Source of the DNA: Ensifer sp. PDNC004
Lineage (GTDB): Bacteria; Pseudomonadota; Alphaproteobacteria; Rhizobiales; Rhizobiaceae
Direction of reading: 5' to 3'
DNA: 64,000 nucleotides
Assembly (NCBI RefSeq): GCF_016919405.1
Contig: NZ_CP070353.1
Span: 62,001-126,000 of the forward strand
The notes under the pieces: generated by a model
What the model saw: the letters and a program-made list of their open reading frames with translations, nothing else
Databases searched by the model: none
Told to the model about the DNA's origin: nothing
In this document: piece by piece, positions 17,534 to 36,952 of the stretch
Position numbering within the stretch: the stretch's first letter is position 1
Layout: every line of letters starts with the position of its first letter
Translations under genes and position numbers: made by a program

Positions 17534-18694
17534 TCACGCCCCCAGCGGCCGCAAGAGGTCGCGGCTGATGATGTGGCGCTGGATTTCAGACGTGCCGTCC
17601 CAGATGCGCTCGACGCGGGCGTCGCGCCAGAAGCGGGCGAGCGGCAGGTCGTCCATCAGGCCCATGCCGCCAAAAATCTGGATCGCCTCGTCGGTGACGC
17701 GGGCGAGCATTTCGGTGGCGTAGACTTTGGCGGATGCAATCTCGCGGTTCGCCGGCAGGCCGTTGTCGAGCCGCCAGGCGGCGGACAGCGTCAAAAGGTC
17801 GGCGGCGTCGATCTCGGTGATCATGTCGGCGAGCTTGAAGGAGACGCCCTGGTTGGCGCCGATCGGCTTGCCGAACTGCTTGCGCTCGGCGGCATAGTTT
17901 AGCGCATAGTCGAAGGCGCGGCGCGCCCGGCCGACCGAGGTCGCCGCCACCGTCAGGCGGGTGGCGAACAGCCAGTCATTGGCGACGTCAAATCCCTTGT
18001 GCACTTCGCCGAGGATCTGGGCGGAGGGCAGGCGGCAATCGTCGAAGGTGAGCACGCAGTTGTTGTAGCCGCGGTGGGAAACGGAGTTGTACCCCTTGCG
18101 GATCTCGAAGCCGGGCGTACCTCGGTCGACGAGGAAGCAGGTGATCTTCTTCTTCGGCCCGCGCGGCGTCTCTTCCTCGCCGGTGGCGATGAAGACGATG
18201 ACGAAATCGGCGATGTCGGCATGGCTGATGAAATGCTTGGTGCCGTTGACGATCCAGTCGTCGCCCTCCTTGCGGGCAAAACACTTCATGCCGCGCACGT
18301 CGGAGCCCGCATCCGGCTCGGTCATGGCCAGCGCATCGAACTTGTCACCCTTGACCGCCGGCAGCAGGTACTTCTCGCGCTGCTCGGCGTTGCAGGCCAT
18401 CAGGATGCCGGAGGGGCGGCCGAAGAAGACGGTGAGGCCCATGGAGCCGCGGCCAAGCTCGCGCTCGACGAGCGTGAAAGAGGTGTGATCTAGACCTGCG
18501 CCGCCCACTTCCTCCGGGAAGTTACAGCCGAAAAAGCCGATCTCCTTGCATTTGCGGGCGATCTCCTGGCCGAGTTCGCGGGGCACCACGCCGGTGCGCT
18601 CGACCTCGTCCTCATGCGGATAGATTTCGGTTTCGACGAAGCTCCTGACCGTATCGACGATCATCTGCTGTTCTTCGGTCAGTGCGAAATTCAT
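17534..18694 (-). CDS. Acyl-CoA dehydrogenase, probable gamma-butyrobetainyl-CoA dehydrogenase
   Basis: 386 residues from MNFALTEEQQ; the 15-codon upstream extension is not needed. Standard ACAD features: 'AMTEPDAGSDVRGMKC' (about 123-138), 'WIVNGTKHFISHAD' (FAD region), 'RKQFGKPIG' and 'IQIFGGMGLMDDLPL'. At the usual catalytic 'IYEGT' site this protein has I-W-D366-G-T, i.e. Asp instead of Glu. It would make crotonobetainyl-CoA, the substrate of the hydratase at 14496-15278. Electron acceptor presumably ETF. Confidence 0.86.
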   Translation of the reverse strand: MNFALTEEQQMIVDTVRSFVETEIYPHEDEVERTGVVPRELGQEIARKCKEIGFFGCNFPEEVGGAGLDHTSFTLVERELGRGSMGLTVFFGRPSGILMACNAEQREKYLLPAVKGDKFDALAMTEPDAGSDVRGMKCFARKEGDDWIVNGTKHFISHADIADFVIVFIATGEEETPRGPKKKITCFLVDRGTPGFEIRKGYNSVSHRGYNNCVLTFDDCRLPSAQILGEVHKGFDVANDWLFATRLTVAATSVGRARRAFDYALNYAAERKQFGKPIGANQGVSFKLADMITEIDAADLLTLSAAWRLDNGLPANREIASAKVYATEMLARVTDEAIQIFGGMGLMDDLPLARFWRDARVERIWDGTSEIQRHIISRDLLRPLGA

Positions 18695-18732
18695 TGTGTT
18701 GTTCCCCTCGTTTTCGCGCCGCTGACGTCGGT

Positions 18733-18783
18733 GCCGCAAACGATGGCCGCCTCCTCAAGCGTCCTTCGGCTGCGGTTTGCGGC
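18733..18783. other. Inverted repeat in the gap between dehydrogenase genes
   Basis: GCCGCAAAC (18733-18741) and GTTTGCGGC (18775-18783) are perfect 9-base arms around a 33-base GC-rich loop, in the 140-base gap downstream of the carnitine dehydrogenase gene. Possibly an mRNA hairpin; no T-run. Confidence 0.4.
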
Positions 18784-18834
18784 TCCGCCCGCAAGGCGAA
18801 GCTGCCTGTCGTTGCTGGCCTGCCGCTGTTGCGG

Positions 18835-20328
18835 TCAGGCGCGCTTCTGGCCGACGAAGCGTCCGGCACCGTCAGGCGTCGGCAGCTGCGCATGGGCTTC
18901 TGTAATCGCACGCAGCTTGCTCAGCACCTTTTCGGGTGCCGTGACCGCCTTGCCGGCCTTGCTGTCGACATGCAGCATCATCTGCTCGGCGGTGGCCACG
19001 GCCTCGTTGGTCGCGGCGTTGTAGATCGTCGAGAAGATGTGCAGGCGCTTTTCGTCGGACGACAGGATCTGGCAGGTCGAATAGAGCGCCTCGCCGAGCT
19101 TGGCTTCGCCGAGGTTCCGGATGTGGGTCTCGACGGTGTAGTAGCTGTGGCCGTCGCGGACGTATTCGAGGTCGACGCCGATCAGGCGCAGCACGCCGTC
19201 GGAGGTGTCGCCGAAGACCTGCAGATAGCGGTGCTCGGTCATGTGGCCGTTGTAGTCGACCCAGGCGGCGCTGACCTTGGTGTCGAGAATGCGCAGCGGC
19301 TTGACGTCGCCGAGATCGGCTTCCGGCTTCCGGGCGTTGGCCCAGAGCTTGGCCTCGAAATCAGCAAGCAGCTTGCCGGCACCCCAGCCTTCGCCGCCAT
19401 TGCCGGATTTCAGCGCATGCATGATGCCGACGAGGTTTTCGTCGCGGATGCGTTCGAGCTCGCGGATCGAGCGGCCGGCGGCCTGCGCGTCCGACTGCGC
19501 GCCGATCTTCTCGACCAGCGCGTCGTCGAGGTCGACGACATCGGTGAACTTCGTCCAGGGCCATTTCAGGCAGGGGCCGAACTGGGCGAGGAAGTGACGC
19601 ATGCCCGCTTCGCCGCCGGCGATGCGATAGGTCTCGAACAGGCCCATCTGCGCCCAACGCATGCCGAAGGAATAGCGCATGACGTTGTCGAGCGTTTCGG
19701 TATCGCAGATGTCGTCCTGGATCAGCCACAGCGCCTCGCGCCAGAGCGCTTCGAGCAGACGATCGCCGACGAAGGCCTCGATCTCCTTGGCGATGACGAC
19801 GCCCTTCATGCCGATCTGCTCGACGCCCTGCATGGCGCGCTCGATCGTCGCCTTCGTCGTCTTCTTGCCGCCGACCAGTTCGACGAGCGGCAACAGGTAG
19901 ACCGGGTTATAGGGGTGCGCCACGAACATGCGTTCCGGGTGGTGCATCTCGGCCTGGAGATCCGACGGCAGCAGACCCGAAGTGGACGAGCCGATCAGCG
20001 CATCCGGACGTGCGGCCGCATCGATCTTGGTGATGACGCCGCGCTTCAGCTCCAGCCGTTCCGGCACGCTTTCCTGAATCCAGTCAGCACCTTCGACGGC
20101 TTCCTCGATGCTCTTGCAGAAGGTCAGTTTGCCCTTCGGCGGCAAGGGCGCCATGGTCAGCATCGCATAGGCGCGCTCGGCATTGGCCATGACTTCGCCG
20201 ATGATGCGCTCGGCTTCCGGATGCGGGTCGAAGATCTTCACGTCGATGCCGGCAAGCGCGAAGCGCGCCACCCAGGCGCCGCCGATAACGCCGCCACCGA
20301 CACAGGCTGCTTTGGTGATAAAGCTCAT
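18835..20328 (-). CDS. cdhA: L-carnitine 3-dehydrogenase fused to betainyl-CoA thioesterase
   Basis: 497 residues in two parts. Residues 1 to about 330 are a 3-hydroxyacyl-CoA-dehydrogenase-like carnitine dehydrogenase: NAD-binding 'CVGGGVIGGAWVARFALAG' (about 9-27), 'SSTSGLLPSDLQAEMHHPER' and 'VAHPYNPVYLLPLVELVGG'. Residues about 345-490 are a hot-dog thioesterase ('VSAAWVDYNGHMTEHRYLQVF'). Known CdhA oxidises L-carnitine to 3-dehydrocarnitine with NAD+; CdhB hydrolyses betainyl-CoA to glycine betaine. Fusion of the two is known in rhizobia. It lies 16 bases downstream of the cleavage enzyme that makes betainyl-CoA, so the fusion brackets that step. Confidence 0.93.
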   Translation of the reverse strand: MSFITKAACVGGGVIGGAWVARFALAGIDVKIFDPHPEAERIIGEVMANAERAYAMLTMAPLPPKGKLTFCKSIEEAVEGADWIQESVPERLELKRGVITKIDAAARPDALIGSSTSGLLPSDLQAEMHHPERMFVAHPYNPVYLLPLVELVGGKKTTKATIERAMQGVEQIGMKGVVIAKEIEAFVGDRLLEALWREALWLIQDDICDTETLDNVMRYSFGMRWAQMGLFETYRIAGGEAGMRHFLAQFGPCLKWPWTKFTDVVDLDDALVEKIGAQSDAQAAGRSIRELERIRDENLVGIMHALKSGNGGEGWGAGKLLADFEAKLWANARKPEADLGDVKPLRILDTKVSAAWVDYNGHMTEHRYLQVFGDTSDGVLRLIGVDLEYVRDGHSYYTVETHIRNLGEAKLGEALYSTCQILSSDEKRLHIFSTIYNAATNEAVATAEQMMLHVDSKAGKAVTAPEKVLSKLRAITEAHAQLPTPDGAGRFVGQKRA

Positions 20329-20344
20329 GATGTCCTGTCCTTGC

Positions 20345-21247
20345 TCAGCGCTTCGTCAGCTTCAGTTTCTCGCGGACCTCTTTCGGTCCGATGATCTTGG
20401 CGCCCATGCCCTCGATGACGCCGACGGCCTTTTCGACGAGCTGGCCGTTGGTCGCGAGTTGGCCCTTGCCGATATAGAGGTTGTCCTCGAGGCCGACGCG
20501 GACATTGCCACCGGCAAGGATCGCCGCTGCCGGGTAGGCGAGCGCGTTGCGGCCGATGGAGAAGGCCGAGAAGGTCCAGTTGGCGGGCACGTTGTTGACC
20601 ATGGCCATGAAGGTGTTGAGGTCGTCAGGGGCACCCCACGGAATGCCCATGCAGAGCTGGATCAGCACCGGATCCTCGATCAGGCCTTCCTCGACGAGCT
20701 GCTTGGCAAACCACAGATGGCCGGTATCAAAGGCCTCGATCTCCGGGCGAACGCCGAGCGCCGTCATCTGACGGGCCATTTCGCGCAGCATCGACGGCGT
20801 GTTGGTCATGACGTAGTCGCCGAGCGAGAAGTTCATGGTGCCGCAGTCGAGCGTGCAGATCTCCGGCAGACATTCGGCCACATGGGCGACACGCTCGGTG
20901 GCGCCGGCCATGTCGGTGCCGGTCTCGTTGACGGGTAGGGGCTTCTCGACATTGCCGAATACGAGATCGCCGCCCATGCCGGCCGTCAGGTTCAGGACGA
21001 TATCGATATCGGCGGAGCGGATGCGGTCGGTCACTTCCCGGTAGAGATCGAGCCTGCGCGACGGTACGCCGGTTTCCGGATCGCGAACGTGGCAGTGGAT
21101 CACGGCAGCGCCGGCCTTGGCCGCCTCGACCGCCGCTTCGGCGATCTGTTTCGGCGTGATCGGCACGTGGCTGGACTTTGAAACGGTGTCTCCCGAGCCG
21201 GTGACGGCACAGGTGATGAATACCTCGCGGTTCATGCTGAGCGGCAT
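20345..21247 (-). CDS. cdhC: Beta-keto acid cleavage enzyme (BKACE/DUF849), 3-dehydrocarnitine:acetyl-CoA trimethylamine-acetyl transferase
   Basis: 300 residues from the ATG at 21247 (MPLSMNRE), preceded by GGGAGA. TIM-barrel BKACE with the zinc motif 'VIHCHVRDPETG' (H-x-H), 'LNLTAGMGGDL' and 'NVRVGLEDNLYI'. CdhC condenses 3-dehydrocarnitine with acetyl-CoA and splits it to betainyl-CoA and acetoacetate. Specificity is inferred from the adjacent dehydrogenase/thioesterase fusion. First gene of the minus-strand run; the regulator is divergent. Confidence 0.92.
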   Translation of the reverse strand: MPLSMNREVFITCAVTGSGDTVSKSSHVPITPKQIAEAAVEAAKAGAAVIHCHVRDPETGVPSRRLDLYREVTDRIRSADIDIVLNLTAGMGGDLVFGNVEKPLPVNETGTDMAGATERVAHVAECLPEICTLDCGTMNFSLGDYVMTNTPSMLREMARQMTALGVRPEIEAFDTGHLWFAKQLVEEGLIEDPVLIQLCMGIPWGAPDDLNTFMAMVNNVPANWTFSAFSIGRNALAYPAAAILAGGNVRVGLEDNLYIGKGQLATNGQLVEKAVGVIEGMGAKIIGPKEVREKLKLTKR

Positions 21248-21302
21248 TGCTGTCTCCCTTTTATTGCGCCCATTACGAGCCAAGAAAGACCGCGTTGCTT
21301 TT

Positions 21303-21333
21303 CATTATCGGCTTCATTCTATACATTATCGGC
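21303..21333. promoter_or_regulatory. Direct repeat, probable CdhR (AraC-type) operator
   Basis: CATTATCGGC occurs at 21303-21312 and again at 21324-21333, exactly 21 bases apart (two helical turns). It lies between cdhC (start 21247) and the divergent regulator (start 21356). AraC-type activators commonly bind such same-face direct repeats. Confidence 0.65.
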
Positions 21334-21355
21334 GATAGAGCGGAGAAGTTTGGGT

Positions 21356-22327
21356 ATGGATCAGAACGTTTCGCAGGTGCAGCACGTCGATATCCTGGTA
21401 CTGCCGGAGACCAATCTGATCCTCGTTGCCTCGGTGATCGAGCCGATGCGTGCGGCCAACCGCATTGCCGGCCGCCCGCTCTACGACTGGACGATCTACA
21501 GCCCCGATGGGGCGCCGATCGAAACGAAGAGCGGCATTCCCATTCCGGTTTCCGGCGCCTTCCGGCCGCAGCGCGAGACGTCGCCGCTCTTCATCCTCTC
21601 CAGCTACAACTGGGAGCGCAGCGCCACCTCGCAATTGAAGATGCTGCTGTCGCAGACGGCGCGGCACCGCGAGATGATGGCCGGCATCGAGTCAGGCTCC
21701 TGGCTGCTTGCCGAGACCAGCCTGCTCGACAATTTCAAGGCGACCACCCACTGGGAGGATTTCGAGGATTTCACCGCGGCTTACCCGCAGGTGACGATGG
21801 TGCGCGAGCGCTTCGTCATCGACGGCAAGCGCATCACGACCGGCGGCTCGCTGCCGACGCTCGATCTGATGCTCGAGCTGATCCGCCGGGCGCACGGCTA
21901 CTCTCTGGCGCTCGAAGTCTCCCGCCTCTTCATCTACGAGCAGGAGCGCACCCGCGGCGACCTTCTGCAGATGCCGACGATCGGCAACATGCGCATTCTC
22001 GATCCGCGCGTCGGCGCTGCCGTCAAGCTGATGGAGGAAACTGTGGAGGCGCCGCTGACGCTCTCGCGGCTTGCCCGCCGCATCGGTGTCAGCACGCGCC
22101 ATCTGCAGGATCTCTTTCGCGACACGATGGGGGTCGCTCCGCATGAACACTATCTGGCACTCCGTCTCAATGCGGCGCGCCGCAAGGTGATCGAGACGCG
22201 GCTGGAATTCGCCGATATCGCGGCGATCTCGGGCTTCAATTCGTCGTCGTCGTTTTCGCGCAGCTACCGGGCGCATTATCGCGAAAGCCCGAGCGAGACG
22301 CGGAGGCGGTTGAAGCTGAAGAGCTGA
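21356..22327 (+). CDS. cdhR: GlxA-type AraC family regulator of carnitine catabolism (CdhR-like)
   Basis: 323 residues from the ATG at 21356 (GGAG ten bases upstream; a TTG two codons earlier is less likely). N-terminal GATase1-like domain (about 8-200) in which the nucleophile turn reads G110-I-E-S-G-S-W, with no cysteine, so it senses rather than catalyses. C-terminal AraC double HTH ('LSRLARRIGVSTRHLQDLFR' and 'FADIAAISGFNSSSSFSRSY'). The domain layout is that of CdhR and related betaine regulators. Divergent from cdhC, with a matching direct repeat in the gap. Confidence 0.87.
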   Translation: MDQNVSQVQHVDILVLPETNLILVASVIEPMRAANRIAGRPLYDWTIYSPDGAPIETKSGIPIPVSGAFRPQRETSPLFILSSYNWERSATSQLKMLLSQTARHREMMAGIESGSWLLAETSLLDNFKATTHWEDFEDFTAAYPQVTMVRERFVIDGKRITTGGSLPTLDLMLELIRRAHGYSLALEVSRLFIYEQERTRGDLLQMPTIGNMRILDPRVGAAVKLMEETVEAPLTLSRLARRIGVSTRHLQDLFRDTMGVAPHEHYLALRLNAARRKVIETRLEFADIAAISGFNSSSSFSRSYRAHYRESPSETRRRLKLKS

Positions 22328-22372: not shown

Positions 22373-23596
22373 TCAGGCGTTTGGCGGCCGACGATCAGGA
22401 ACTGATTCCGCCGGCGAACTGGTCTCGGCGGTCATCTTCATCATCGAAATCATCAGCTCGCCGATCTCGGCGGCAAACGCGCCGCGTGGCCAGACGAGCG
22501 TGAGCGACTGCCGATAGGCCGGGCCGAGCCGGATCATGGCCGGCGGGCGATGCACGCGGGCAAGCGAGGATTGCGGCAGCACCGAGAGATAGCCGTGCTG
22601 ACGAACGAGGTTGATGATCACGGGGATGGAATCGACCTCGACGAGGGTGATGCGCCGCCGCTCGGCTTCATCGAGCGTGTCGTCGAGGAAACGGGCGGCC
22701 TCGCGGCGAAGGCCGCTCCTGACGCTCGGCACCGCGATCGGGCAGGCGGCGAGCAGCCGCGGCAGGTTGCCGCCCAGGTCCGAAAGCGCGGAGGCTGGGC
22801 CGGCGAGAACCAGTGGTGTCTGCGATACCAGCCGGCCGTCGCAGTCGGCGGGGATTTCGGCGACATCGAGCAGGGCAGCATCGAAGCGGCGGCTGCGTAG
22901 ACCGGCGAGAAGTTCGTCGGCCGTGGTGCTGGAAATGAACAGCGGCTGACGCGGGCGGGCGCGGTGCCAGTTCGCCGTCAGTGCGGCCAGCATGCGGGCG
23001 ATCTCGCTTTCCGGACCAAGCGGCATGACGGCGCCGAGCCGCCAGGTGGCGACATCGCGGCGGAAGCGATCGGCGGAGGCATGGGTCAGCCGCGCCCAGA
23101 TATCCAGCAGAGCTTCGGCCAGCGGAATGATGGCCTGGCCAGCGGTCGTGCAAAGGATGCCGCCGTGGGAGCGCTCGAACAGCCGGCTGCCGAGATGGCG
23201 CTCGAGGTCCACCATCTGCCGGGTCAATTGCGGCTGGCCGATGCCGAGCGCCTTTGCCGTTGCGCGGATGCTGCCTGAACGGGCGATGCGGAGGAAGCGG
23301 TCGAGCGGGACGAGGCCGATCGGCGGCACAGGCTCGCCTTCCTGCCGGCCGGCGACCTTGAGGATCGCGGCGATCCTTGCCGTCGCGTCACGGATGTCGA
23401 CCGCGCGGGCGCGGGCCTCCAGCGTCAGGACGAGGGCGGTTTCCTCCCGTCGGAAGAGCGGCATCGAGATCGCCTGTTCGAAGCGTTTGACGGCGGCGCT
23501 GACGCTTGATGGCGCGCGTTTGCTGACGACTGCTGCGCGGCGAATGCCCCCTTCGCCGAGCACCGCGTCGACCAGCGCGATCGTTGCCAGATCCAT
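22373..23596 (-). CDS. LysR family regulator with two tandem HTH domains
   Basis: 407 residues from the ATG at 23596 (GGGGA upstream). A first LysR-like HTH covers about residues 1-60 ('MDLATIALVDAVLGEGGIRR', 'APSSVSAAVKRFEQAISMPL'); a second complete LysR HTH follows at about 100-160 ('LVPLDRFLRIARSGSIRATA', 'LGIGQPQLTRQMVDLERHLG'). The rest is a LysR substrate domain ('PLVLAGPAS', 'VEVDSIPVIINLVRQHGYLS'). Normal LysR proteins are about 300 residues with one HTH; this one is about 100 longer. It is divergent from the proposed ergothioneine genes and probably controls them. Confidence 0.86.
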   Translation of the reverse strand: MDLATIALVDAVLGEGGIRRAAVVSKRAPSSVSAAVKRFEQAISMPLFRREETALVLTLEARARAVDIRDATARIAAILKVAGRQEGEPVPPIGLVPLDRFLRIARSGSIRATAKALGIGQPQLTRQMVDLERHLGSRLFERSHGGILCTTAGQAIIPLAEALLDIWARLTHASADRFRRDVATWRLGAVMPLGPESEIARMLAALTANWHRARPRQPLFISSTTADELLAGLRSRRFDAALLDVAEIPADCDGRLVSQTPLVLAGPASALSDLGGNLPRLLAACPIAVPSVRSGLRREAARFLDDTLDEAERRRITLVEVDSIPVIINLVRQHGYLSVLPQSSLARVHRPPAMIRLGPAYRQSLTLVWPRGAFAAEIGELMISMMKMTAETSSPAESVPDRRPPNA

Positions 23597-23669
23597 TCGT
23601 CCATCCCCGCCGGCAGGGCTTGCGATCGCCATGTTCCGGATTTTGCATCGCCCGTTCCAGATTTGGGAT

Positions 23670-23770
23670 ATAGCATGCAGCGGCGATAAGCGCATAGCAT
23701 GCTTTCGGCAACCGGCCATTTGCGAGCGACGGTTGCGAGAGTTTCAAACATCCGCGCACCGTTTCGAAAC
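23670..23770. promoter_or_regulatory. Divergent control region with two repeat pairs
   Basis: ATAGCATGC appears at 23670-23678 and 23694-23702 (24 bases apart). GTTTCAAAC (23741-23749) and the perfect palindrome GTTTCGAAAC (23761-23770) are 20 bases apart and 36 bases upstream of the lyase start. Both sit between the double-HTH LysR gene and the lyase operon and are candidate binding sites. Confidence 0.5.
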
Positions 23771-23805: not shown

Positions 23806-25344
23806 ATGCTGCATCAGGCCAAAACCACTGTTCTTTGCGGGAAACCGCTGGATTTCGCGACGCTCGGCGACATCGGGACGGGACGGGTCCGGCCGGTGGC
23901 CGATGACGGCGACATGGAACGGGTGGCGGCCGCCCACAAGGTGGTTGCCGACCGCGTCGCCATGGGGCTGCCAGTCTATGGTTCCAACACCGGCGTCGGC
24001 TCGATGAAGGATCGCCTGTGGACGGCGGATGATCTCGCCGAATTCAACAATGCGCTGGTGCGCGCCCACCATTTCGGGACCGGCGAGTTCTTCGCACCGG
24101 CGATCGTGCGCATGGCGATCGCGATCCGCGTGAATACTGCGATGCGCGGCCACACCGGCTGCAGCCCGGATCTCATCCGGGCGTTCCTGGCGCTGCTCGA
24201 GGCCGACATCATTCCGGCGGTGCGCCGCCACGGATCGATGGGCTGCGCCGATATCGGCCTGATGGGCCAGATCGCCTCGGTGCTGACGGGCGTCGGCGAG
24301 GCCTATTATCAGGGGCGTCTCGTCTCGGCCGAGACGGCGCTTGCCGAAGCCAGCCTCGAGCCCTTCGTGATGCGGCCGCGCGATGCGCTGGCGGCGCTCA
24401 GCGTCAACGCCATTTCCTTCGCGGCGGCAGTCAACGTGTTGCGCGAAGCGGCCTCGGCCATCCGCGTGCTGCTTGTCACCGGGGTCATGTCGTCGCAAGC
24501 GCTCGGAGCATCTGCCGATCCCTGGCGGGTGGCGGCAACACTCTCGACTCGTGGCGAGGCGGTGGTCGGCTCATGGCTCTATGGCCAATCGGGCATCTCC
24601 GACTGGCCGGTGCCGACGGCGATTCATGATCCCTTGAGCCTGCGCATGACCGCCCAGGTGTTCGGCGCGGTGGTCGATACGCTGCTGGTTGCGGCCGGCC
24701 GGTTGATAGAGCAGACCTATCTCTCCGACGACAACCCTGTTGTCATCGGCGGGCAGGTCCACTCCTCCGGCGCGTCGCTGCCGCTGACCACGACGCTTTA
24801 TATCGAGGCGGCGCAGATCGCCTTTTCGCACGCAGCGCGCAACGTCTTGAACCGCTGCATCCTTCTTGCGAATGGCGGCCGCCGCAATCTCTCGGTCAAT
24901 CTGGTGGCGCCGGGCGAGGTCGCGACCGGGCTCGGGCCGCTGATGAAGCTGGCGGTCGAACTCTACATGCGCGTGCAGTCGCTCGCCGTGCCGCTTTCGG
25001 CGCAGTCGATCGTGGTGGCGGGCGGGCTCGAGGAGGAGGCGACCTTCCTGCCGCTGATCGTCGAGCGCATGGAAACGCAGGTGCGCGATCTGCGCCAACT
25101 GGCGGCGATCGAGGCGATGCTTTCGGCGCAGGCGATCGACCTCGTCGGCGACCAGCCGCAGGGGATCGTCAAACGGGCCTACGACCAGACCCGCTCCGTC
25201 AGCGCGATCTATCTGAAGGACCGGCCGCTTTCGAAGGAGATCGAGGCGCTGCAGGCTGCCTTCACCTGCCATGATCTCCTGCGCTCCTTCGTCGCCTCCG
25301 CGCCGATGCCGGAGTTCGACGACTTCTTCGCGCTCGACAAATAA
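23806..25344 (+). CDS. HAL/PAL-superfamily lyase without MIO triad, probable ergothionase (ergothioneine trimethylamine-lyase)
   Basis: 512 residues, the length of histidine ammonia-lyase. The fold signature is present: 'LPVYGSNTGVGSMKD' with Y58 at the place of the catalytic Tyr of HutH, and 'NPVVIGGQVHSSGASLP'. But at the site of the self-cyclising Ala-Ser-Gly (family 'GSVGASGDLAPLAH') this protein reads G143-S-M-G-C147-A148-D149-I-G, so the MIO cofactor cannot form. Ergothionase, which removes trimethylamine from ergothioneine to give thiourocanate, is a known MIO-independent member. The downstream genes match the rest of that pathway, so I infer this activity. Not a normal hutH. Confidence 0.78.
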   Translation: MLHQAKTTVLCGKPLDFATLGDIGTGRVRPVADDGDMERVAAAHKVVADRVAMGLPVYGSNTGVGSMKDRLWTADDLAEFNNALVRAHHFGTGEFFAPAIVRMAIAIRVNTAMRGHTGCSPDLIRAFLALLEADIIPAVRRHGSMGCADIGLMGQIASVLTGVGEAYYQGRLVSAETALAEASLEPFVMRPRDALAALSVNAISFAAAVNVLREAASAIRVLLVTGVMSSQALGASADPWRVAATLSTRGEAVVGSWLYGQSGISDWPVPTAIHDPLSLRMTAQVFGAVVDTLLVAAGRLIEQTYLSDDNPVVIGGQVHSSGASLPLTTTLYIEAAQIAFSHAARNVLNRCILLANGGRRNLSVNLVAPGEVATGLGPLMKLAVELYMRVQSLAVPLSAQSIVVAGGLEEEATFLPLIVERMETQVRDLRQLAAIEAMLSAQAIDLVGDQPQGIVKRAYDQTRSVSAIYLKDRPLSKEIEALQAAFTCHDLLRSFVASAPMPEFDDFFALDK

Positions 25345-25362
25345 TCCGATTGGGAGAGCAGC

Positions 25363-26742
25363 ATGTCCGATTTCGATCTCGTTCTGAAAGGCACCGTTGT
25401 TCTCCCCGAAAGGATCGTCGAGGGCGGCCACGTGGCGGTCAGCGACGGCAAGGTGGTGCATGTCGGGCAGGGGGCGGCACCGGCGGCGCGCGAGCGGCAT
25501 GATCTCGGCAACGCGCTGATCCTGCCGGGCGCTGTCGATGCGCAGGTGCATTCGCTGTCGCAGAAGAACCAGGAAGACTTCATCTGGTCGACCCGCTCGG
25601 CAGCCGCCGGTGGCGTCACCACTATTGTCGACATGCCCTATGACGAGGGCAATCTCGTCTGCTCGGCCGACGCGCTCCGCCGCAAGATCGACCATGCGGC
25701 ACCGCAGGCGCGCGTCGATTTCGCGCTTTATGGCACGGTCGATCCGGAGGAAGGACCGGCGCGCATTCTCGAAATGGTGGAGGGCGGTGTTGCCGCTTTC
25801 AAGTTCTCGACCTTCGGCACCGACCCCAAGCGCTTCCCCCGCATTCCGGCAGCTTTGCTCGAAGATTGCTTTCGTGCGATCGCGCCGACGGGGCTTGCTG
25901 CCGGCGTGCACAACGAGGACGACGAGGCGGTGCGCGCGGCGATCGACAAGGTCAAGGCAGCCGGCATCACCGACTATCGCGCCCATGGCCTGTCGCGCCC
26001 GCCGCTGACGGAGCTGCTCGCCACCAACCAGATTTACGAGACGGGGGCGGCTACCGGCTGCCCGGCACATGTTGTGCACTGCTCGCTCGGCCGCGGGTAC
26101 GAGATCGCCGCTGCCTACCGCGCCCAGGGCTACAGGGCGACGATCGAGTGCTGCATCCACTACCTGACGCTCGACGAGGAGAGCGATGTTCGCCGTCTCG
26201 GCGGCAAGGCCAAGATCAACCCGCCGATCCGCCCGCGCGCCGAGGTGGAAAAGCTCTGGCGGCATGTGGCCGATGGCACGGTGACGATGGTCTCGACCGA
26301 TCACGTGAGCTGGTCGGAAGACCGCAAGACCAATCCGGACATGCTCGCCAATGCGTCGGGCGTGCCGGGTCTCGAAGTCATGGTGCCGCTCTTCGTCAAG
26401 GGCGCGCTGGAACGCGGCATCCCTTTGACGCGGGCGGCGGAGCTGATGGCGCTGAACCCGGCGCGGCACTTCCGCCTTGACCATAAAAAGGGCGCGCTGG
26501 AGCCCGGCAAGGATGCCGACATCATTGTCATGACGCCGGAGCCCTATGTCTATGATGCGGCGGCAAGCGGTCACAACGTTGTCGGCTGGTCGCCCTATAA
26601 CGGTATCCGGCTGCCCTGGCGGGTGGCTGCGACCTATCTGCGTGGCCGGCTTGCCTTCGATGGTCGCCAGGTCTTGGCCGAACCGGGTGTCGGACAGTTT
26701 GTCCGGCCGCTTCCAACTCTGGCGCTTCAGGAGGCGAAATGA
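25363..26742 (+). CDS. Hydantoinase/dihydropyrimidinase-like amidohydrolase, probable hydantoin-5-propionate hydrolase
   Basis: 459 residues, cyclic amidohydrolase fold. Metal-site residues are recognisable: carboxylated Lys in 'VAAFKFS' (K147), His in 'AGVHNED' (H183), His in 'AHVVHCS' (H239) and Asp in 'STDHVSW' (D313). The usual first D-x-H-x-H reads D59-A-Q61-V-H63, so one His ligand is Gln. In the ergothioneine pathway this step opens hydantoin-5-propionate to N-carbamoyl-L-glutamate. Ribosome site GGGAG. Its stop overlaps the next start (ATGA). Confidence 0.8.
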   Translation: MSDFDLVLKGTVVLPERIVEGGHVAVSDGKVVHVGQGAAPAARERHDLGNALILPGAVDAQVHSLSQKNQEDFIWSTRSAAAGGVTTIVDMPYDEGNLVCSADALRRKIDHAAPQARVDFALYGTVDPEEGPARILEMVEGGVAAFKFSTFGTDPKRFPRIPAALLEDCFRAIAPTGLAAGVHNEDDEAVRAAIDKVKAAGITDYRAHGLSRPPLTELLATNQIYETGAATGCPAHVVHCSLGRGYEIAAAYRAQGYRATIECCIHYLTLDEESDVRRLGGKAKINPPIRPRAEVEKLWRHVADGTVTMVSTDHVSWSEDRKTNPDMLANASGVPGLEVMVPLFVKGALERGIPLTRAAELMALNPARHFRLDHKKGALEPGKDADIIVMTPEPYVYDAAASGHNVVGWSPYNGIRLPWRVAATYLRGRLAFDGRQVLAEPGVGQFVRPLPTLALQEAK

Positions 26743-28019
26743 GCAAGACCGCCCACAAAGTTCCGGCCAATCTGCCCGTCAATGCGAGCCGCATTGCCGG
26801 GATCGTCAACGGTCTCGCCGGGATCACCGAGCCGGACCGGCCCTATACGCGCCGCGCCTTCACGCCGCTGTTTCTCGAAGGCCGCGCCTTTCTCGACCGG
26901 CGCTTTCGCGCCGCCGGGCTTGAAACACGGATCGACGCTGCCGGTAACCTGATCGGTCGGCGCAAGGGCAAAAAGTCGGCGCTCGGCACCATCCTGCTCG
27001 GCTCCCATTCCGACACGGTGCCGGAGGGCGGCCGCTTTGACGGCATCGCCGGCGTCGCGTCGGCGCTCGAAGTGGCGCGGGCGCTTTCCGACAACGGCAT
27101 CGAGCTCGATCATGATCTGGAGATCGTCGATTTCCTGGCGGAAGAAGTGTCTATCTTCGGCGTTTCCTGCGTCGGCAGCCGCGGCATGGCGGGCGTGCTG
27201 CCGGATGGCTGGCTCAGCCGCACGCAAGGGGATCTGAGTCTGCGGCAGGGTATCGTCGAAGTGGGCGGTGATCCGTCGCGGCTCTCGGGTTCGAAGCGCT
27301 CCGACATCAAGGCGTTCCTCGAACTGCACATCGAGCAGGGGCCGGTGCTGGAGACTGGCCGGCTCGATGTCGGGGTCGTTACCGCAATCTCGGGCATCAC
27401 TCGCATCGAGATCATCGTCGAGGGGCAGGCGGACCACGCCGGCACGACGCCGATGGGCCACCGGCGCGATGCGCTGGTCGCCGCCTCGCACCTGGTGCTG
27501 GAGATCGAGCGGCTGGCGACGGAATTTTCGCATGGCGACGGGCATTTCACCACGACGGTCGGTGAATTCTCGATCGAGCCGAACGCGGCCAATGTGGTGC
27601 CGTCTCGCGTCCGGCTGCTGATCGATGCGCGTGCCGAGCTGCGGCCGCAGATGGAGCGGTTCCTGGCAACGCTCGGCTCCCTTTGCCAGGGTGTCGCCGA
27701 GGCATCGGGCGTGACCATCCCGCCCGCCAATGTGATCTCCGACAACCACCCGACGCCGGGCGATCCGCTGTTGCTTTCGACGCTGGAAGAAAGCTGCGAC
27801 GCGATCGGAGCAAAACACCGGCGCATGGCCTCCGGCGCCGGTCACGACACCGCCTGGATGGGGCGCATCACCCGCTCGGCGATGATCTTCATTCCCTGCC
27901 TCGGCGGACGTTCGCATGCGCCAGAGGAGTGGGCCGAAAACGACGATATCGCGCTTGGCGCCGCCGTTCTCTTCGATGCGGTGAAGAGGCTCGACAAGAA
28001 ATTGCAGGAAAAGGTGTGA
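26739..28019 (+). CDS. M20 family Zn amidase, probable N-carbamoyl-L-glutamate amidohydrolase
   Basis: 426 residues of the N-carbamoyl-L-amino acid hydrolase/allantoate amidohydrolase group. Metal and substrate motifs: 'LLGSHSDTVPEGGRFDGIAG' (about 86-105), 'FLAEEVSIFGVSCVGSRGM', 'LHIEQGPVLE', 'DHAGTTPMGHRRDAL' and 'SGAGHDTAWMGRI'. It would release glutamate, CO2 and ammonia from N-carbamoyl-glutamate, the last step of the proposed route. Translationally coupled on both sides (ATGA overlap upstream, one base to the next ATG). Confidence 0.85.
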   Translation: MSKTAHKVPANLPVNASRIAGIVNGLAGITEPDRPYTRRAFTPLFLEGRAFLDRRFRAAGLETRIDAAGNLIGRRKGKKSALGTILLGSHSDTVPEGGRFDGIAGVASALEVARALSDNGIELDHDLEIVDFLAEEVSIFGVSCVGSRGMAGVLPDGWLSRTQGDLSLRQGIVEVGGDPSRLSGSKRSDIKAFLELHIEQGPVLETGRLDVGVVTAISGITRIEIIVEGQADHAGTTPMGHRRDALVAASHLVLEIERLATEFSHGDGHFTTTVGEFSIEPNAANVVPSRVRLLIDARAELRPQMERFLATLGSLCQGVAEASGVTIPPANVISDNHPTPGDPLLLSTLEESCDAIGAKHRRMASGAGHDTAWMGRITRSAMIFIPCLGGRSHAPEEWAENDDIALGAAVLFDAVKRLDKKLQEKV

Positions 28020-28020
28020 G

Positions 28021-29130
28021 ATGGGCCGGATACTGAAGGAAAAGGACGTCGAGGCGGCGGTCAAGGGCGGTTCCGTCTATGCGGCCGGCGGCGGTGGCTG
28101 GGCCGACCATGGGCGCATGCTCGGTTATGCTGCGGTCTCGATCGGCAAGCCCGAGCTCGTCTCGATCGACGAACTCGACGCGCAGGACTGGGTGGCGACG
28201 GCGGCCGCGATCGGCGCGCCGGCCTCGACCACGCCGTGGGAGATGCGCGGGGTCGACTACGTCAAGGCGGTGCAATTGCTGCAGGAGGCGCTCGGCGAAA
28301 AGCTTTCGGGCCTGATCATCGGCCAGAACGGCAAGTCCTCGACGCTCAACGGCTGGCTGCCCTCGGCGATCCTCGGCACCAAGGTGGTGGACGCGGTCGG
28401 CGATATCCGCGCGCACCCGACCGGCGACATGGGCTCGATCGGCCTTGCCGGTTCACCCGAGCCGATGATCCAGACGGCGGTCGGCGGCAACCGCGACGAG
28501 AACCGCTATATCGAGCTGGTGGTGCGCGGCGCCACCGCCAAGGTTTCGCCGATCCTGCGCACCGCTTCCGACATGTCCGGTGGCTTCATCGCCTCCTGCC
28601 GCAATCCGGTCAGGGCATCTTACGTCAAAGCCAATGCGGCGCTCGGCGGCATCTCGCTGGCGCTGGCACTCGGTGAGGCGATTATCGCTGCCGAAGCCAA
28701 GGGCGGCAGCGCCATCATCGATGCGATCGTCAAGACGACCAATGGCGCGATCCTCGCCGAGGGCACGATCACCGATAAGTCCGTCGTCTACACCAAGGAA
28801 GCCTTCGACATCGGCACCGTTACACTGGAAAAGGGGACGCTGGGGAAGGGCGCTGACTCGACGGTATTGCACGTGATGAACGAATATATGGCGGTTGACT
28901 CTGCGGAAGGCACGCGGCTTGCGACCTTCCCCGACGTCATCACGACGCTGTCGCCGGAGGGCGAACCTTTGAGCGTCGGCCAGCTGCAAGTGGGCATGAG
29001 GATCTTCGTGCTGCATGTGCCGAAGACTGTGATCCCGCTGTCTTCCAGCGTGCTGGACCCGACGGTCTATCCCTCGGTCGAAAAGGCGATGGGTATCGAG
29101 CTTGCCCGCTACGCGCTTGCAGGCAACTGA
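28021..29130 (+). CDS. DUF917 / S-methyl-thiohydantoin desulfurase family, probable thioxo-imidazolidine propionate desulfhydrase
   Basis: 369 residues. 'GSVYAAGGGGWADHGRMLGY' near the N-terminus and 'GDMGSIGLAGSPEPMIQTAVGG' and 'RNPVRASYVKANAALGGISL' in the middle are typical of DUF917, now named after a thiohydantoin desulfurase. Many members start 'GTGGGGxP..G'; here it is AGGGGWADHG. The known ergothioneine route needs a desulfhydrase turning 3-(5-oxo-2-thioxoimidazolidin-4-yl)propionate into hydantoin-5-propionate, which this gene would supply. The step assignment is inference. Confidence 0.8.
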   Translation: MGRILKEKDVEAAVKGGSVYAAGGGGWADHGRMLGYAAVSIGKPELVSIDELDAQDWVATAAAIGAPASTTPWEMRGVDYVKAVQLLQEALGEKLSGLIIGQNGKSSTLNGWLPSAILGTKVVDAVGDIRAHPTGDMGSIGLAGSPEPMIQTAVGGNRDENRYIELVVRGATAKVSPILRTASDMSGGFIASCRNPVRASYVKANAALGGISLALALGEAIIAAEAKGGSAIIDAIVKTTNGAILAEGTITDKSVVYTKEAFDIGTVTLEKGTLGKGADSTVLHVMNEYMAVDSAEGTRLATFPDVITTLSPEGEPLSVGQLQVGMRIFVLHVPKTVIPLSSSVLDPTVYPSVEKAMGIELARYALAGN

Positions 29131-29142
29131 GGGAGCTGCGCC

Positions 29143-29472
29143 ATGGTGCGCGATGCCGGACTGGAAGAGTTGATCCGCGAAGAGCTGGGCGACCGCGCCG
29201 GGCTCTCGGAAAAGGCGATGTTCGGCGGCTGGGCGTATCTGCTTCACGGCAACCTGCTGCTCGGCGCGCGCGAGGGTTCGCTGCTCGTCCGGCTCGGCAA
29301 GGGCAATGACGGCTGGGCGCTGGCGCTGCCTGATATCGAGCTGATGGTGATGAACGGGCGGGCGATGCATGGCTGGGTGCGTGCCGGGGCGGATGCCTAT
29401 GGCGATGATGCCCTGCGAAAGCGGCTGCTCGATGGGGCGATTACCTTCGTCGAGACGTTGCCGCCGAAGTGA
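29143..29472 (+). CDS. TfoX N-terminal domain protein
   Basis: 109 residues: 'SEKAMFGGWAYLLHGNLLLG' and 'LLVRLGKGNDGW' and 'MNGRAMHGWVRAG' match the TfoX/Sxy N-terminal domain, without the C-terminal half of competence Sxy. Single-domain forms are common in rhizobia with unknown role. It is 12 bases after the DUF917 gene and 43 before the urocanase-like gene, on the same strand, so it is part of the operon although no enzymatic step is missing. Confidence 0.82.
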   Translation: MVRDAGLEELIREELGDRAGLSEKAMFGGWAYLLHGNLLLGAREGSLLVRLGKGNDGWALALPDIELMVMNGRAMHGWVRAGADAYGDDALRKRLLDGAITFVETLPPK

Positions 29473-29515
29473 ACTTGGGGACCGCCCCGCCGAGACAACA
29501 ACAAGGAACGAGACG

Positions 29516-31174
29516 ATGCCCAAGGCCAATCCCCGTCATCCTGGTTTTCCCATTCCCGGCGGGCCGGAGCTGCGCGCCAAGGGCTGGCGGCAGGAAGCGC
29601 TGCTGCGGCTCCTGGAGAACGTCCTTTCGGTCGGCGAGGACCCGGACAATCTCGTCGTCTATGCAGCGCTCGGCAAGGCGGCGCGCAACTGGCCGGCGCA
29701 CCGCGCCATCGTCAAGACGCTTACCGAAATGGACGAGGACCAGACGCTCATCATCCAGTCGGGCAAGCCTGTGGGCCTGCTCAAGACTCATGCCAAGGCG
29801 CCGCTCGTCATCATGGCCAATTGCAACATCGTCGGCCAATGGGCGAAGGCCGAGGTGTTCTATGATCTGCAGCGAAAAGGGCTGATCTGCTGGGGAGGGC
29901 TGACGGCCGGCGCCTGGCAATATATCGGCAGCCAGGGGGTGATCCAGGGCACCTACGAGATCTTCATGCGCATCGCCGAACGCCGCTTCGGCGGCGATCT
30001 CTCCGGCCGTTTCGTGCTGACCGCCGGCCTCGGGGGCATGGGCGGCGCGCAGCCGCTTGCCGGCCGCATGGCGGGAGCGGCGATCCTCTGCGTCGATATC
30101 GACGCCGATCGGGCGAAGAAACGCCGGGAGATCGGCTACCTGCAGGAGATCGCGCCCGATCTCGATACGGCGCTCGCGATGATCGACGCGGCGGTCAAGG
30201 ACAAGCGGGCGCTTTCCGTCGGCCTCGTCGGCAACGCGGCGGAGATCTATCCGGAGATCGCCCGGCGCGGCATCGTGCCGGACGTGGTGACCGACCAGAC
30301 CTCGGCGCACGACCTTGTCTACGGTTACGTGCCGAAGGGCATGAGCCTCGACCAGGTGAAATCGCTGCGCGACGACGGCCAGGGACAGCTGATGGCGGCG
30401 AGCCGGGCCTCGATCGTCGAGCACGTCAAGGCGATGCTGGATTTCCAGAAAAAGGGCGCGGAAGTCTTCGACAACGGCAACCTGATCCGCACCCAGGCGC
30501 GCGAGGGCGGCGTTGCCAATGCCTTCGACATACCGATCTTCACCGAGGCCTATCTGCGCCCGCTCTTTGCCCGCGCCATCGGTCCGTTCCGCTGGATGGC
30601 GCTGTCGGGAGAGGAAAGCGATATTGCGCGGATCGACGATCTGCTGCTCGACATGTTTCCGCACAACCGCATCGTCACCAACTGGATCAGGCTTGCGCGC
30701 CAGCATATCCCTTTCGAGGGCCTGCCGGCCCGCATCGCCTGGCTCGGGCACGGGGAGCGCACGGCCCTAGCACGACGCGTCAACGAACTGGTGGCATCCG
30801 GCGAACTCAAGGGGCCGATCGCGTTCTCCCGCGACCATCTCGACGCCGGCGCCATGGCGCATCCAAACATCATGACCGAGCGGATGAAGGACGGATCGGA
30901 CGCGATCGCCGACTGGCCGCTGCTCGACGCCATGCTGCTCTGCTCGTCCATGGCCGACCTCGTCGTCGTGCATTCCGGCGGCGGCGGCTATGCCGGCTAC
31001 ATGACGAGCTGCGGCGTAACCGTTGTTGCAGACGGCACGGTCGAGGCCGACGAGCGGCTCGACTATGCGCTGACCAACGACACGTCCCTCGGCGTCATCC
31101 GCTATGCGGATGCCGGCTATGACGAGAGCTTCGAGGAGATCGCCGCCAAGGGTATCGGGCACGTGAAGGTGTAG
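29516..31174 (+). CDS. Urocanase family hydratase, probable thiourocanate hydratase
   Basis: 552 residues from the ATG at 29516 (AAGGA upstream). Urocanase blocks are plain: 'QSGKPVGLLKTHAKAPLVIM' (81-100), 'GRFVLTAGLGGMGGAQPLAG' (164-183), 'LVGNAAEIYPEI', 'VTDQTSAHDLVYGYVP' and the late 'ADAGYDE'. Differences from true HutU fall in active-site stretches: 'YGGIGKAARNW' reads Y49-A-A-L-GKAARNW, and 'GLPARICW' reads GLPARIA408W, so the well-known cysteine (410 in Pseudomonas putida HutU) is Ala. 'HHGGGVGMG' reads VHSGGGGYAG. These fit a sulfur-bearing substrate. Binds NAD+ as cofactor in the family. Confidence 0.82.
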   Translation: MPKANPRHPGFPIPGGPELRAKGWRQEALLRLLENVLSVGEDPDNLVVYAALGKAARNWPAHRAIVKTLTEMDEDQTLIIQSGKPVGLLKTHAKAPLVIMANCNIVGQWAKAEVFYDLQRKGLICWGGLTAGAWQYIGSQGVIQGTYEIFMRIAERRFGGDLSGRFVLTAGLGGMGGAQPLAGRMAGAAILCVDIDADRAKKRREIGYLQEIAPDLDTALAMIDAAVKDKRALSVGLVGNAAEIYPEIARRGIVPDVVTDQTSAHDLVYGYVPKGMSLDQVKSLRDDGQGQLMAASRASIVEHVKAMLDFQKKGAEVFDNGNLIRTQAREGGVANAFDIPIFTEAYLRPLFARAIGPFRWMALSGEESDIARIDDLLLDMFPHNRIVTNWIRLARQHIPFEGLPARIAWLGHGERTALARRVNELVASGELKGPIAFSRDHLDAGAMAHPNIMTERMKDGSDAIADWPLLDAMLLCSSMADLVVVHSGGGGYAGYMTSCGVTVVADGTVEADERLDYALTNDTSLGVIRYADAGYDESFEEIAAKGIGHVKV

Positions 31175-33033: not shown

Positions 33034-33795
33034 CTACACCACCGTCTCGCCGCCATCGACCACCAGGATCTGGCCGGTCATGTAGGAGGAGCGGTCGGAA
33101 ACGAGGAAGAGGATCGACTCGGCGATCTCGTCGACGCTGGCCCAGCGGCCGAGCGGCACCTTTTCGCGGATATAGGATTCGATCGCGCCGCGGCCGCCCA
33201 TCTGGGCGATGAAAGGCTCGTTGAAGGGCGTGTCGACCCAGCCGGGGCAGAGCGCGTTGACGCGGATGCCGTGGCGGGCGTAGTCGCCGGCCATCTGCTT
33301 GGTCATGGCAATGACGGCGTGTTTGGTGGTCGTATAGGCGATCATCTCGCGGTCGTAGAGCACGCCCGAGGAAGAGGACGTGTTGAGGATGACGCCGCGG
33401 CCGGCAGCCCGCATCGACGGCATGACCAGGCGCGCCGCCATGAAATGGGCGCGCACATTGAGGTTCCAGGAACGGTCGAAGCCTGCGACTTCGACCTCCT
33501 CCAGATCGCCTGCAACCTGCGCGCCGGCGTGATTGTGCAGGATGTCGATGCGACGGTGGCGGTAGAGGATGTCGGCGATGCCGTCGGAAAGGGCGGCGTC
33601 ATCCGTCACGTCGATCGCCAGCGCCTCGGCGCTGCCGCCCTTCGCGGCGATGTCTTCCACGGCGGTTACTGCTGCCGAAAGGCTGCGGTCGACCACGACG
33701 ACATGGGCGCCTTCGCGCGCCATGATGGCCGCACCCGCCTGACCGATCCCGGAGCCCGCTCCGGTCACGATCGCGACCCGGTCTTTCAGGATCAT
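33034..33795 (-). CDS. Short-chain dehydrogenase/reductase
   Basis: 253 residues. Rossmann 'IVTGAGSGIGQAGAAI' (about 9-24), 'LHNHAGAQ' at the NNAG position, catalytic Ser in 'NTSSSSG', the YTTTK motif in 'MIAYTTTKHAVIAMT', and 'PGWVDTPFNEPF'. A complete classical SDR. It is the last gene of the polyamine-type ABC operon (4 bases after the permease), so it probably oxidises the imported compound or a product of it. Confidence 0.9.
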   Translation of the reverse strand: MILKDRVAIVTGAGSGIGQAGAAIMAREGAHVVVVDRSLSAAVTAVEDIAAKGGSAEALAIDVTDDAALSDGIADILYRHRRIDILHNHAGAQVAGDLEEVEVAGFDRSWNLNVRAHFMAARLVMPSMRAAGRGVILNTSSSSGVLYDREMIAYTTTKHAVIAMTKQMAGDYARHGIRVNALCPGWVDTPFNEPFIAQMGGRGAIESYIREKVPLGRWASVDEIAESILFLVSDRSSYMTGQILVVDGGETVV

Positions 33796-33799
33796 GGTT

Positions 33800-34618
33800 T
33801 CACTCCCCGGATTTCGTTTTCTTTTCCCGCATCAGGATGCGGGCGGTCAGGATCAGAAGCAGCGAGGCGACGAGCACCAGCGTCGCGATCGCGTTGATCT
33901 CGGGCGTCACGCCGCGGCGGATCGAGGCAAAGACGTAGATCGGCAGCGTGGTCTTCGAGCCTGCGACGAAGAAGGCGATGATGAAATCGTCGAAGGAGAA
34001 GGTGAAGGCCAACAGGAAGCCCGCAAGGATCGAGGGCAGAATCTGCGGCAGCACGATGAGCCGGAAGGTGGTGAGCGGCGTCGCATAGAGATCGCTTGAC
34101 GCCTCGACGATGTCGCGGCCGAGGCTGGCGATGCGGGCTTTGACGATCATCGTCACCAGCGCCATCGAGAACAAGCCGTGGGCGGCGATGATCGAGCCGT
34201 AACCGAGCCCCAGCTGCGGCGGCTGGTCGCCGGGCCAGATGGTGGCCAGCGCCGGATTGACGAAGGAGAAGACGGCGACGAGCGCCACCAGCGTGGCGAT
34301 GCCGATGACGACGCCGGGAACGACGATGGCCGCTGCAAAGAGCGCATCGAAGATCGCCCGGTTGCGCGGCGCCAGACGCTCCATGCCGAGCGCTGCCATG
34401 GTGCCGAAGATCGCGGCGAGCGTGGCGCTGGTGAAGGCGATCAGCAGGCTGTTCTGCAGGGCCGAGACCAGGAAGGTGTTGCCAAGCGCCTTGCCGTACC
34501 AGGCGGTCGAAAAGCCGGTGAACTCGCTGGCGTTGCGTCCGGCGTTGAAGGAGAACAGCACGACCAGCGCGATCGGCGCATAGAGGAAGAGATAGACGGA
34601 GGAGATGAAGGCGCGCAT
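33800..34618 (-). CDS. ABC transporter permease, PotC type
   Basis: 272 residues, six predicted membrane helices starting 'FISSVYLFLYAPIALVVLFS'. The 'FNAGRNASEFTGFSTAWYGK' loop and the EAA loop 'DIVEASSDLYATPLTTFRLI' are typical of the PotC class; 'FSFDDFIIAFFVAG' near the end is the family fingerprint. Its start overlaps the stop of the PotB-type gene. Confidence 0.93.
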   Translation of the reverse strand: MRAFISSVYLFLYAPIALVVLFSFNAGRNASEFTGFSTAWYGKALGNTFLVSALQNSLLIAFTSATLAAIFGTMAALGMERLAPRNRAIFDALFAAAIVVPGVVIGIATLVALVAVFSFVNPALATIWPGDQPPQLGLGYGSIIAAHGLFSMALVTMIVKARIASLGRDIVEASSDLYATPLTTFRLIVLPQILPSILAGFLLAFTFSFDDFIIAFFVAGSKTTLPIYVFASIRRGVTPEINAIATLVLVASLLLILTARILMREKKTKSGE

Positions 34619-35484: not shown

Positions 35485-35542
35485 AGGTTTGGTCCGTTGT
35501 GTTCTGGAATGTTTTGGTCGTCGCGCAAAACGGTGAGGAAAG

Positions 35543-35706
35543 CCCCTCATCCGGCCTGCCGGCCCCTTGTCCCCGCAGGAGGGGCGAAGGGGACTAGTGG
35601 CGCCCGCCCGGTCGCATTCTTCCGGCAGAAGCAGGAGGGCAGGGAGCCTGCCGCTTGTTCCTTCTCCCCGCTTGCGGGGAGAAGGGGCCGGCCGGCGGAT
35701 GACGGG
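35543..35706. repeat. Rhizobial palindromic repeat between binding-protein and permease genes
   Basis: Inner hairpin CCTTCTCCCCG-CTTG-CGGGGAGAAGG (35660-35685); outer edges 'atccggcctgccggcccc' and 'ggggccggccggcggat' are imperfectly inverted, so the whole 150-base unit can fold on itself. The same CCTTCTCCCC hairpin occurs at 58241-58266. Confidence 0.75.
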
Positions 35707-35721
35707 CAGTCACATGCAAGA

Positions 35722-36882: not shown

Positions 36883-36928
36883 GACGCTGTTCCCTTTATC
36901 GTTTGACGTTCATGCGTAGGCGGCAGAA

Positions 36929-36946
36929 CCGGCTTTTCGAAGCCGG
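36929..36946. terminator. Intercistronic hairpin between ATPase and binding-protein genes
   Basis: CCGGCTT-TTCG-AAGCCGG, 7-bp stem with a tight tetraloop, just after the ATPase stop. No T-run; an mRNA processing or stability element is as likely as a terminator. Confidence 0.45.
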
Positions 36947-36952
36947 GCGATG

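Follow-up and report, generated by a model that had tools for sequence, protein, structure and literature searches.

The window analysed here, a stretch of 64,000 nucleotides from Ensifer sp. PDNC004 (C2:62001-126000 of a 6.78 Mb genome in three contigs), holds a run of five genes whose products match the enzyme families of ergothioneine (Ert) breakdown. The genes are intact, collinear open frames, all on the + strand at 23806-31174 (Table 1). Their spacing is operon-like, with 18 bp between the lyase and ErtD genes, a 4-bp overlap of the ErtD and ErtE genes and 1 bp between the ErtE and desulfurase genes; the only large gap, between desulfurase and hydratase, is filled by a TfoX_N-type gene. 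Pfam matches comprise Lyase_aromatic (267 bits), three urocanase domains (269, 249 and 143 bits), the S-Me-THD N and C domains, Amidohydro_1 and Peptidase_M20, and the family matches of the five genes are far beyond chance. The hydratase most likely begins at ATG 29516 rather than at the open reading frame start at 29369, since the latter would overlap another gene. The genome is close to Ensifer/Sinorhizobium, and the nearest lyase loci, 96% identical, lie in Ensifer adhaerens strains. The initial annotation had named the five families in one run, as the Pfam and NCBIfam matches bear out, but it had overlooked the TfoX-like gene (29143-29472) and the adjoining conserved carnitine operon.

Table 1. 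Features of the predicted ergothioneine operon and its surroundings (positions in the window)
Feature	Position	Strand	Basis or remark
ErtA-type lyase, predicted ergothionase (ergothioneine -> thiourocanate + trimethylamine), 512 aa	23806..25344	+	PDB 6s7j best match; hutH model failed; residue columns
Site of MIO triad, G-S-M-G-C-A-D-I	24232..24255	+	Alignment columns; one residue shorter than HutH, without Ser
ErtD, hydantoin-5-propionate amidohydrolase	25363..26742	+	NF058538 800 bits, cut-off 600
ErtE, N-carbamoyl-L-glutamate amidohydrolase (M20 amidase)	26739..28019	+	NF058540 599 bits, cut-off 520
DUF917-type thiohydantoin desulfurase	28021..29130	+	NF058529 598 bits, cut-off 440
TfoX_N-type small protein, 109 aa	29143..29472	+	PF04993 31.3 bits, cut-off 30.1
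Thiourocanate hydratase	29516..31174	+	NF058530 1058 bits, cut-off 930; PDB 7ned 825 bits
Divergent LysR-type regulator, two HTH_1 stretches	22373..23719	-	Pfam; in 57/57 close loci
GbdR-like AraC regulator, carnitine neighbour, not pathway	21350..22327	+	GbdR model 221 bits, below cut-off 480
BKACE beta-keto acid cleavage enzyme, carnitine neighbour	20345..21283	-	PF05853 329 bits
Carnitine 3-dehydrogenase with thioesterase domain, carnitine neighbour	18835..20328	-	NF005716 912 bits, cut-off 592
Acyl-CoA dehydrogenase, carnitine neighbour	17534..18739	-	Pfam; in 52/57 close loci
SDR and ABC importer (two permeases, ATPase with TOBE_2, SBP_bac_8)	33034-38035	-	Downstream of operon

With a probability of about 0.9, these genes of a Sinorhizobium/Ensifer-type bacterium form a complete operon for the utilisation of ergothioneine. 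This reading rests on the gene content, the families of steps 2-5, conservation, co-occurrence and, for step 1, the loss of the serine of the 4-methylideneimidazole-5-one (MIO) cofactor site together with a set of ergothionase residues; the operon's substrates, products, regulation, induction and import we infer. Ergothioneine is a dietary antioxidant whose breakdown frees trimethylamine and sulfide. In the proposed pathway a lyase of the histidine ammonia-lyase (HAL) fold, lacking MIO, would eliminate trimethylamine from ergothioneine to leave thiourocanate, which the hydratase would convert to 3-(5-oxo-2-thioxoimidazolidin-4-yl)propionate. The DUF917 desulfurase would then swap sulfur for oxygen with release of sulfide, ErtD would open hydantoin-5-propionate to N-carbamoyl-glutamate, and ErtE would yield glutamate, CO2 and NH3; the divergent LysR regulator would probably control the operon. 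For the chemistry of the five steps we follow the published pathway, with which the NCBIfam names are consistent. The pathway itself is already known; the window adds another host lineage, in which the first enzyme is divergent.

Each step was tested with the curated NCBIfam Ert models and their own cut-offs (NCBIfam 20.0, June 2026). Four of the five operon proteins pass, as thiourocanate hydratase, thiohydantoin desulfurase, ErtD and ErtE, in line with the initial assignment of the operon to five-step ergothioneine degradation. The urocanase homologue, likened there to thiourocanate hydratase, scores 1058 bits on that model (cut-off 930) as against 695 on the hutU model, and fails the model for the S-methyl hydratase (740, cut-off 880). 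Similarly, the desulfurase passes the thiohydantoin model (598, cut-off 440) and fails its S-methyl sibling (279, cut-off 450). Generic hydantoin or allantoin metabolism was rejected on the scores of ErtD, which reaches 285 bits on allantoinase AllB (cut-off 358) and 208 on D-hydantoinase (393). The thiourocanate-hydratase model is bimodal: six of 398 genomes of the phylum exceed its cut-off, at 1029-1061 bits, the next best match scoring 720, and 18 of 299 genomes in another family, that of G322, lie above it, the next best being 715. When 17 ErtB-type hydratases (16 chosen from 110 cluster rows, and PDB 7ned) were aligned with 37 HutU sequences, 44 columns were fixed in the former and absent in the latter. 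In the PDB, the window hydratase matches 7ned at 825 bits and the next urocanase at 618. Deposited as a urocanate hydratase, 7ned shares the 44 ErtB-type columns with the window hydratase, being part of that alignment, and is presumably a thiourocanate hydratase.

No NCBIfam ergothionase model was matched by the window lyase, and so it was tested separately. The expectation that routine annotation would miss this pathway fails for the four genes above, which NCBIfam 20.0 detects, and holds for the lyase only, which databases label simply as a histidine-type ammonia-lyase. The lyase fails the hutH model (204 bits, cut-off 539), and its PDB matches rank Treponema denticola ergothionase 6s7j (184 bits) above a probable HAL (138) and Pseudomonas putida HutH 1gkj (114). 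At the MIO site HutH reads G-S-V-G-A-S-G-D, the window lyase G-S-M-G-C-A-D and the Treponema enzyme S-S-I-G-E-G-D; in place of the Ala-Ser-Gly triad of HutH the window lyase has C-A with no serine. Together with its Lyase_aromatic match (PF00221), this points to a HAL-type fold without the MIO cofactor. Ergothionase is described as lacking MIO in the part of PMC13405746 that was available.

The initial annotation had proposed aligning the lyase with known ergothionases, and the alignment favours its assignment. We compared 17 ergothionases (11 window-type, five Burkholderia/Paracoccus-type and one from Treponema), which represent perhaps four independent lineages, with 16 HutH. The MIO serine is absent in 17/17 ergothionases and present in 16/16 HutH, while K68, D69, S199, L277 and K381 occur in all 17 of the former and in none of the latter, and Y58, H88, R280 and E409 are common to all 33. 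The five ergothionase residues may have a catalytic role. The segment GVGxxKD is found in 119 of 120 homologues among the matches listed (451 found), the exception being a 400-residue fragment. In the Ert lyase L034 the MIO site reads GSIGCADIG and an ASG string lies elsewhere in the protein; lyase row L058 is partial, and in L142 the MIO-site pattern matched another place. K381 also occurs in four of six other MIO-less lyases with an x-A/G-D site. Judging from these columns, it is the residue set and not single residues that marks an ergothionase.

A tree of 59 lyases, with long branches, places 28 MIO lyases (HutH included) and eight MIO-less lyases with a GSVGY site on one side of a branch with support 100/99, and all 23 rows with the x-A/G-D site on the other; these 23 include the lyases of the window and of other Ert clusters as well as the T. 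denticola ergothionase. Clustering of the lyase with true HutH had been named initially as what would speak against an ergothionase; HutH sits across this branch, which argues that the window lyase is not a HutH. The eight GSVGY lyases form a group of their own near the MIO lyases (92/90). A smaller tree of 27 ergothionases and 32 lyases had also given a branch with 100/99 support, with HutH and one other lyase as its only contrast, and is superseded by the larger one. Ergothionases may have had one origin or several.

Gene distribution points the same way. Of 247 genomes in the family to which the window belongs, 33 have the thiourocanate hydratase above its curated cut-off and 25 the window-type lyase (E <= 1e-60). 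All 25 are among the 33, and the lyase occurs in none of the other 214, a co-occurrence that is inflated by the relatedness of the genomes. Lyase and hydratase lie at most 10 kb apart on one contig in 23 of the 25; they are about 180 kb apart in G912 and on different contigs in G852. The eight hydratase genomes without a window-type lyase comprise three with a Burkholderia/Paracoccus-type ergothionase (G775, G905 and G847) and five with none. Gene order, too, is conserved: among 57 close-relative loci, a sample biased to near kin since it was found with the window lyase, the order lyase-ErtD-ErtE-desulfurase-hydratase is identical in 56/56 that reach the hydratase. A search of the window's own genome with PF10017 (EgtD-type) gave no match, so this bacterium probably consumes rather than makes ergothioneine.

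Several observations weigh against ergothioneine utilisation or blur its outline. Overall identity was rejected as a discriminator, as the window lyase shares, over the alignment, 28% of its residues with the Treponema ergothionase, 27% with P. putida HutH and 31% with the Burkholderia type; plain identity does not decide, and active-site residues, which do separate the two, were used instead. Loss of MIO is not specific either, with 14 other MIO-less lyases in the alignment, one of them (L002) in the same genome, and for this reason MIO absence alone was rejected as proof. K68 and D69 each occur in 3/28 MIO lyases of all kinds, none of them HutH, and GVGxxKD alone was likewise rejected. The best tree places two lyases without K68, L181 and L205, among the 17 ergothionases, which are then not strictly one clade; forcing them into one costs 9.9 log-likelihood units and is not rejected (p-AU 0.113). 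The hydratase passes the older hutU model as well (cut-off 375), and public records accordingly name it urocanate hydratase. For ErtE, the generic Zn-hydrolase model NF009531 (687 bits, cut-off 486) outscores the ErtE model NF058540 (599), so that the name ErtE rests partly on context. Finally, no importer was identified for the operon, a question that was not pursued.

Could the genes instead be a second histidine-utilisation set, HutH plus HutU, with hydantoin genes adjacent by accident? The superfamilies are the same, and the hutU score and the public name of the hydratase fit. However, the lyase fails the hutH model and lacks the MIO serine, the 44 ErtB-type columns are absent from HutU, and a full HutH/HutU pair already lies on another contig, at C1:344145 and C1:346884. 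That HutH retains the MIO triad, unlike the window lyase; the two sets share folds at 25% (lyase) and 50% (hydratase) identity, and the resident HutU reaches 690 bits on the thiourocanate-hydratase model, against 1058 for the window hydratase. A Hut duplication was therefore rejected on model scores and has, in our view, next to no chance. The same holds for catabolism of S-methyl-ergothioneine through an S-methyl thiourocanate hydratase and an S-methyl thiohydantoin desulfurase: such homologous sister families exist, but both S-methyl models failed where the thiourocanate and thiohydantoin models were passed, and this pathway too was rejected on those scores, its chance being equally close to nil.

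Ergothionase can act on ergothioneine sulfonate, an oxidised form of the substrate, and a published bacterial pathway for its catabolism might be what the operon encodes. Agrobacterium radiobacter, a rhizobial relative, is cited for it in the introduction of PMC13405746 (its reference 43), as far as that paper was available. A thiohydantoin desulfurase and a thiourocanate-type hydratase would have no obvious place in such a route, which makes it very unlikely, and the window lyase could accept both ergothioneine and its sulfonate. The least improbable alternative, still very improbable, is that hercynine or some other histidine betaine serves the lyase as substrate, or that what the operon really degrades is external thiourocanate, with only a side role for the lyase. 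Ert clusters without an ergothionase do exist, so the downstream block is usable without the lyase; but the urocanate formed from hercynine should need no desulfurase, and, among the 247 family genomes, all those with the lyase also have the hydratase.

According to the available part of a 2026 BLAST-based paper, ergothionase is known in few genera since searches return only histidine-type lyases, and the paper itself states that divergent homologues are not covered (PMC13405746). In the aligned sequences, ergothionases can be told from HutH by the absence of the MIO serine combined with K68-D69, S199, L277 and K381, in a gene beside a thiourocanate hydratase; this provides a testable definition of the first step, where no NCBIfam model matched. 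With the hydratase as marker, the downstream steps are found in 33/247 family genomes, 25 of which also have this type of lyase. Literature searches on rhizobial ergothioneine catabolism and the Ert terms gave nothing beyond PMC13405746, available in part, and PMC9732360, from which we do not claim absence from print.

The five enzyme families are the same as in Burkholderia sp. HME13, whose five-step ergothioneine catabolism was reportedly reconstituted in vitro in 2021. The arrangement differs, as the window has one collinear operon whereas ErtD and ErtE are divergent in the Burkholderia-type clusters compared (e.g. L130, L137-L141), with an MFS gene between the hydratase and a lyase about 31% identical to that of the window. 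The Treponema denticola ergothionase (6s7j/6s7q) lacks the MIO serine and has K68, D69, S199, L277 and K381, as does the window lyase, but the two are 28% identical and C147 at the MIO site of the latter is E in Treponema. A plasmid search with the window lyase gave 844 records, one at no less than 60% identity (Shinella). Other MIO-less lyases were also noted. The own-genome lyase L002 (C2:3627564-3628928), a second MIO-less HAL-family member and one of the GSVGY group, reads GSVGYLTH at the MIO site, and L181, L182, L183, L198, L201 and L205, with an x-A/G-D site and without K68, are probably not ergothionases.

The TfoX_N-type gene is present in 34/56 close loci holding the hydratase and in 43/110 of all rows, which include some regions twice, and in all 43 it lies between the desulfurase and hydratase genes. 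On the other side of the operon, a carnitine catabolism operon with a GbdR-like regulator (17534-22327) is fixed in close relatives: the 57 close loci hold LysR in 57, the GbdR-like AraC regulator in 56, BKACE in 56, carnitine dehydrogenase in 55 and acyl-CoA dehydrogenase in 52, and the five without some carnitine-side gene extend no further than 2.0-5.4 kb beyond the lyase on the upstream side. No carnitine genes are seen within the 3.6-6.5 kb upstream covered in the more distant clusters L123, L126 and L134-L136; the carnitine linkage is a feature of this lineage and not of the Ert pathway. The trimethylammonium group on both substrates may be its reason. The divergent LysR (22373-23719), which probably controls the Ert operon, has an unusual layout with two HTH_1 stretches, seen also in the three alphaproteobacterial relatives scanned (L125, L127 and L129), while L145 has one. 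The SDR and ABC importer genes at 33034-38035 lie near the operon in many relatives and may supply an importer for it. An MFS transporter, 56-64% identical to that of L145, is another candidate importer and occurs in 14/14 rows with a Burkholderia-type ergothionase (L128, L130, L137-L143, L148, L149, L151, L244 and L245).

The 93 cluster rows compared represent 91 different regions (L053 and L133 are the same, as are L130 and L149), and they divide into 64 with a window-type lyase, 14 with a Burkholderia-type lyase and 15 with none in the stretch. In ten genomes with lyase-less clusters (G289, G556, G562, G598, G610, G645, G833, G732, G830 and G749) all the PF00221 proteins found carry the MIO triad. 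G911 has only HutH and a GSVGY-type lyase, and its contig ends beside ErtD. For L124, L125, L127 and L129 the lyase search covered the named plasmid only; that of P. aminophilus (L127) carries two other MIO-less lyases, L201 and L205. UbiD is found in 10 of the 15 lyase-less clusters and a CoA-transferase with acyl-CoA dehydrogenase in 7 (one or both in L127, L129, L144-L147, L150, L243 and L246-L248); the queries behind these counts were taken from a single cluster of this kind, so that close relatives count together. The remaining four (L124, L125, L132 and L242, the last cut by a contig end) have none of these genes. UbiD and that CoA-transferase occur in 0/78 rows with an ergothionase. Acyl-CoA dehydrogenase matches do occur in 54/78, at 23-26% identity among the matches listed, and those of the window-type rows belong to the carnitine locus.

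This distribution suggests exchangeable entry routes to thiourocanate, and on the simplest reading the lyase-less clusters are entered by a different substrate, for instance thioimidazole-propionate or thiourocanate itself. Literature searches on thiourocanate with UbiD or acyl-CoA dehydrogenase returned nothing relevant among the matches listed. Tentatively, and at rather less than even odds, hydratase, desulfurase, ErtD and ErtE would form a stand-alone thiourocanate module with exchangeable entries: a strongly diverged ergothionase in the window's lineage, its operon fixed beside carnitine catabolism; in other proteobacteria, another type of ergothionase accompanied by an MFS transporter; and an undescribed route with UbiD/UbiX, a family III CoA-transferase and two acyl-CoA dehydrogenases, leading perhaps from thioimidazole-propionate (reduced thiourocanate), a substrate at which we can only guess. 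After UbiD, the L247 cluster continues with a UbiX-type flavoprotein, a TRAP transporter and a family III CoA-transferase; matching pieces are found in L243.

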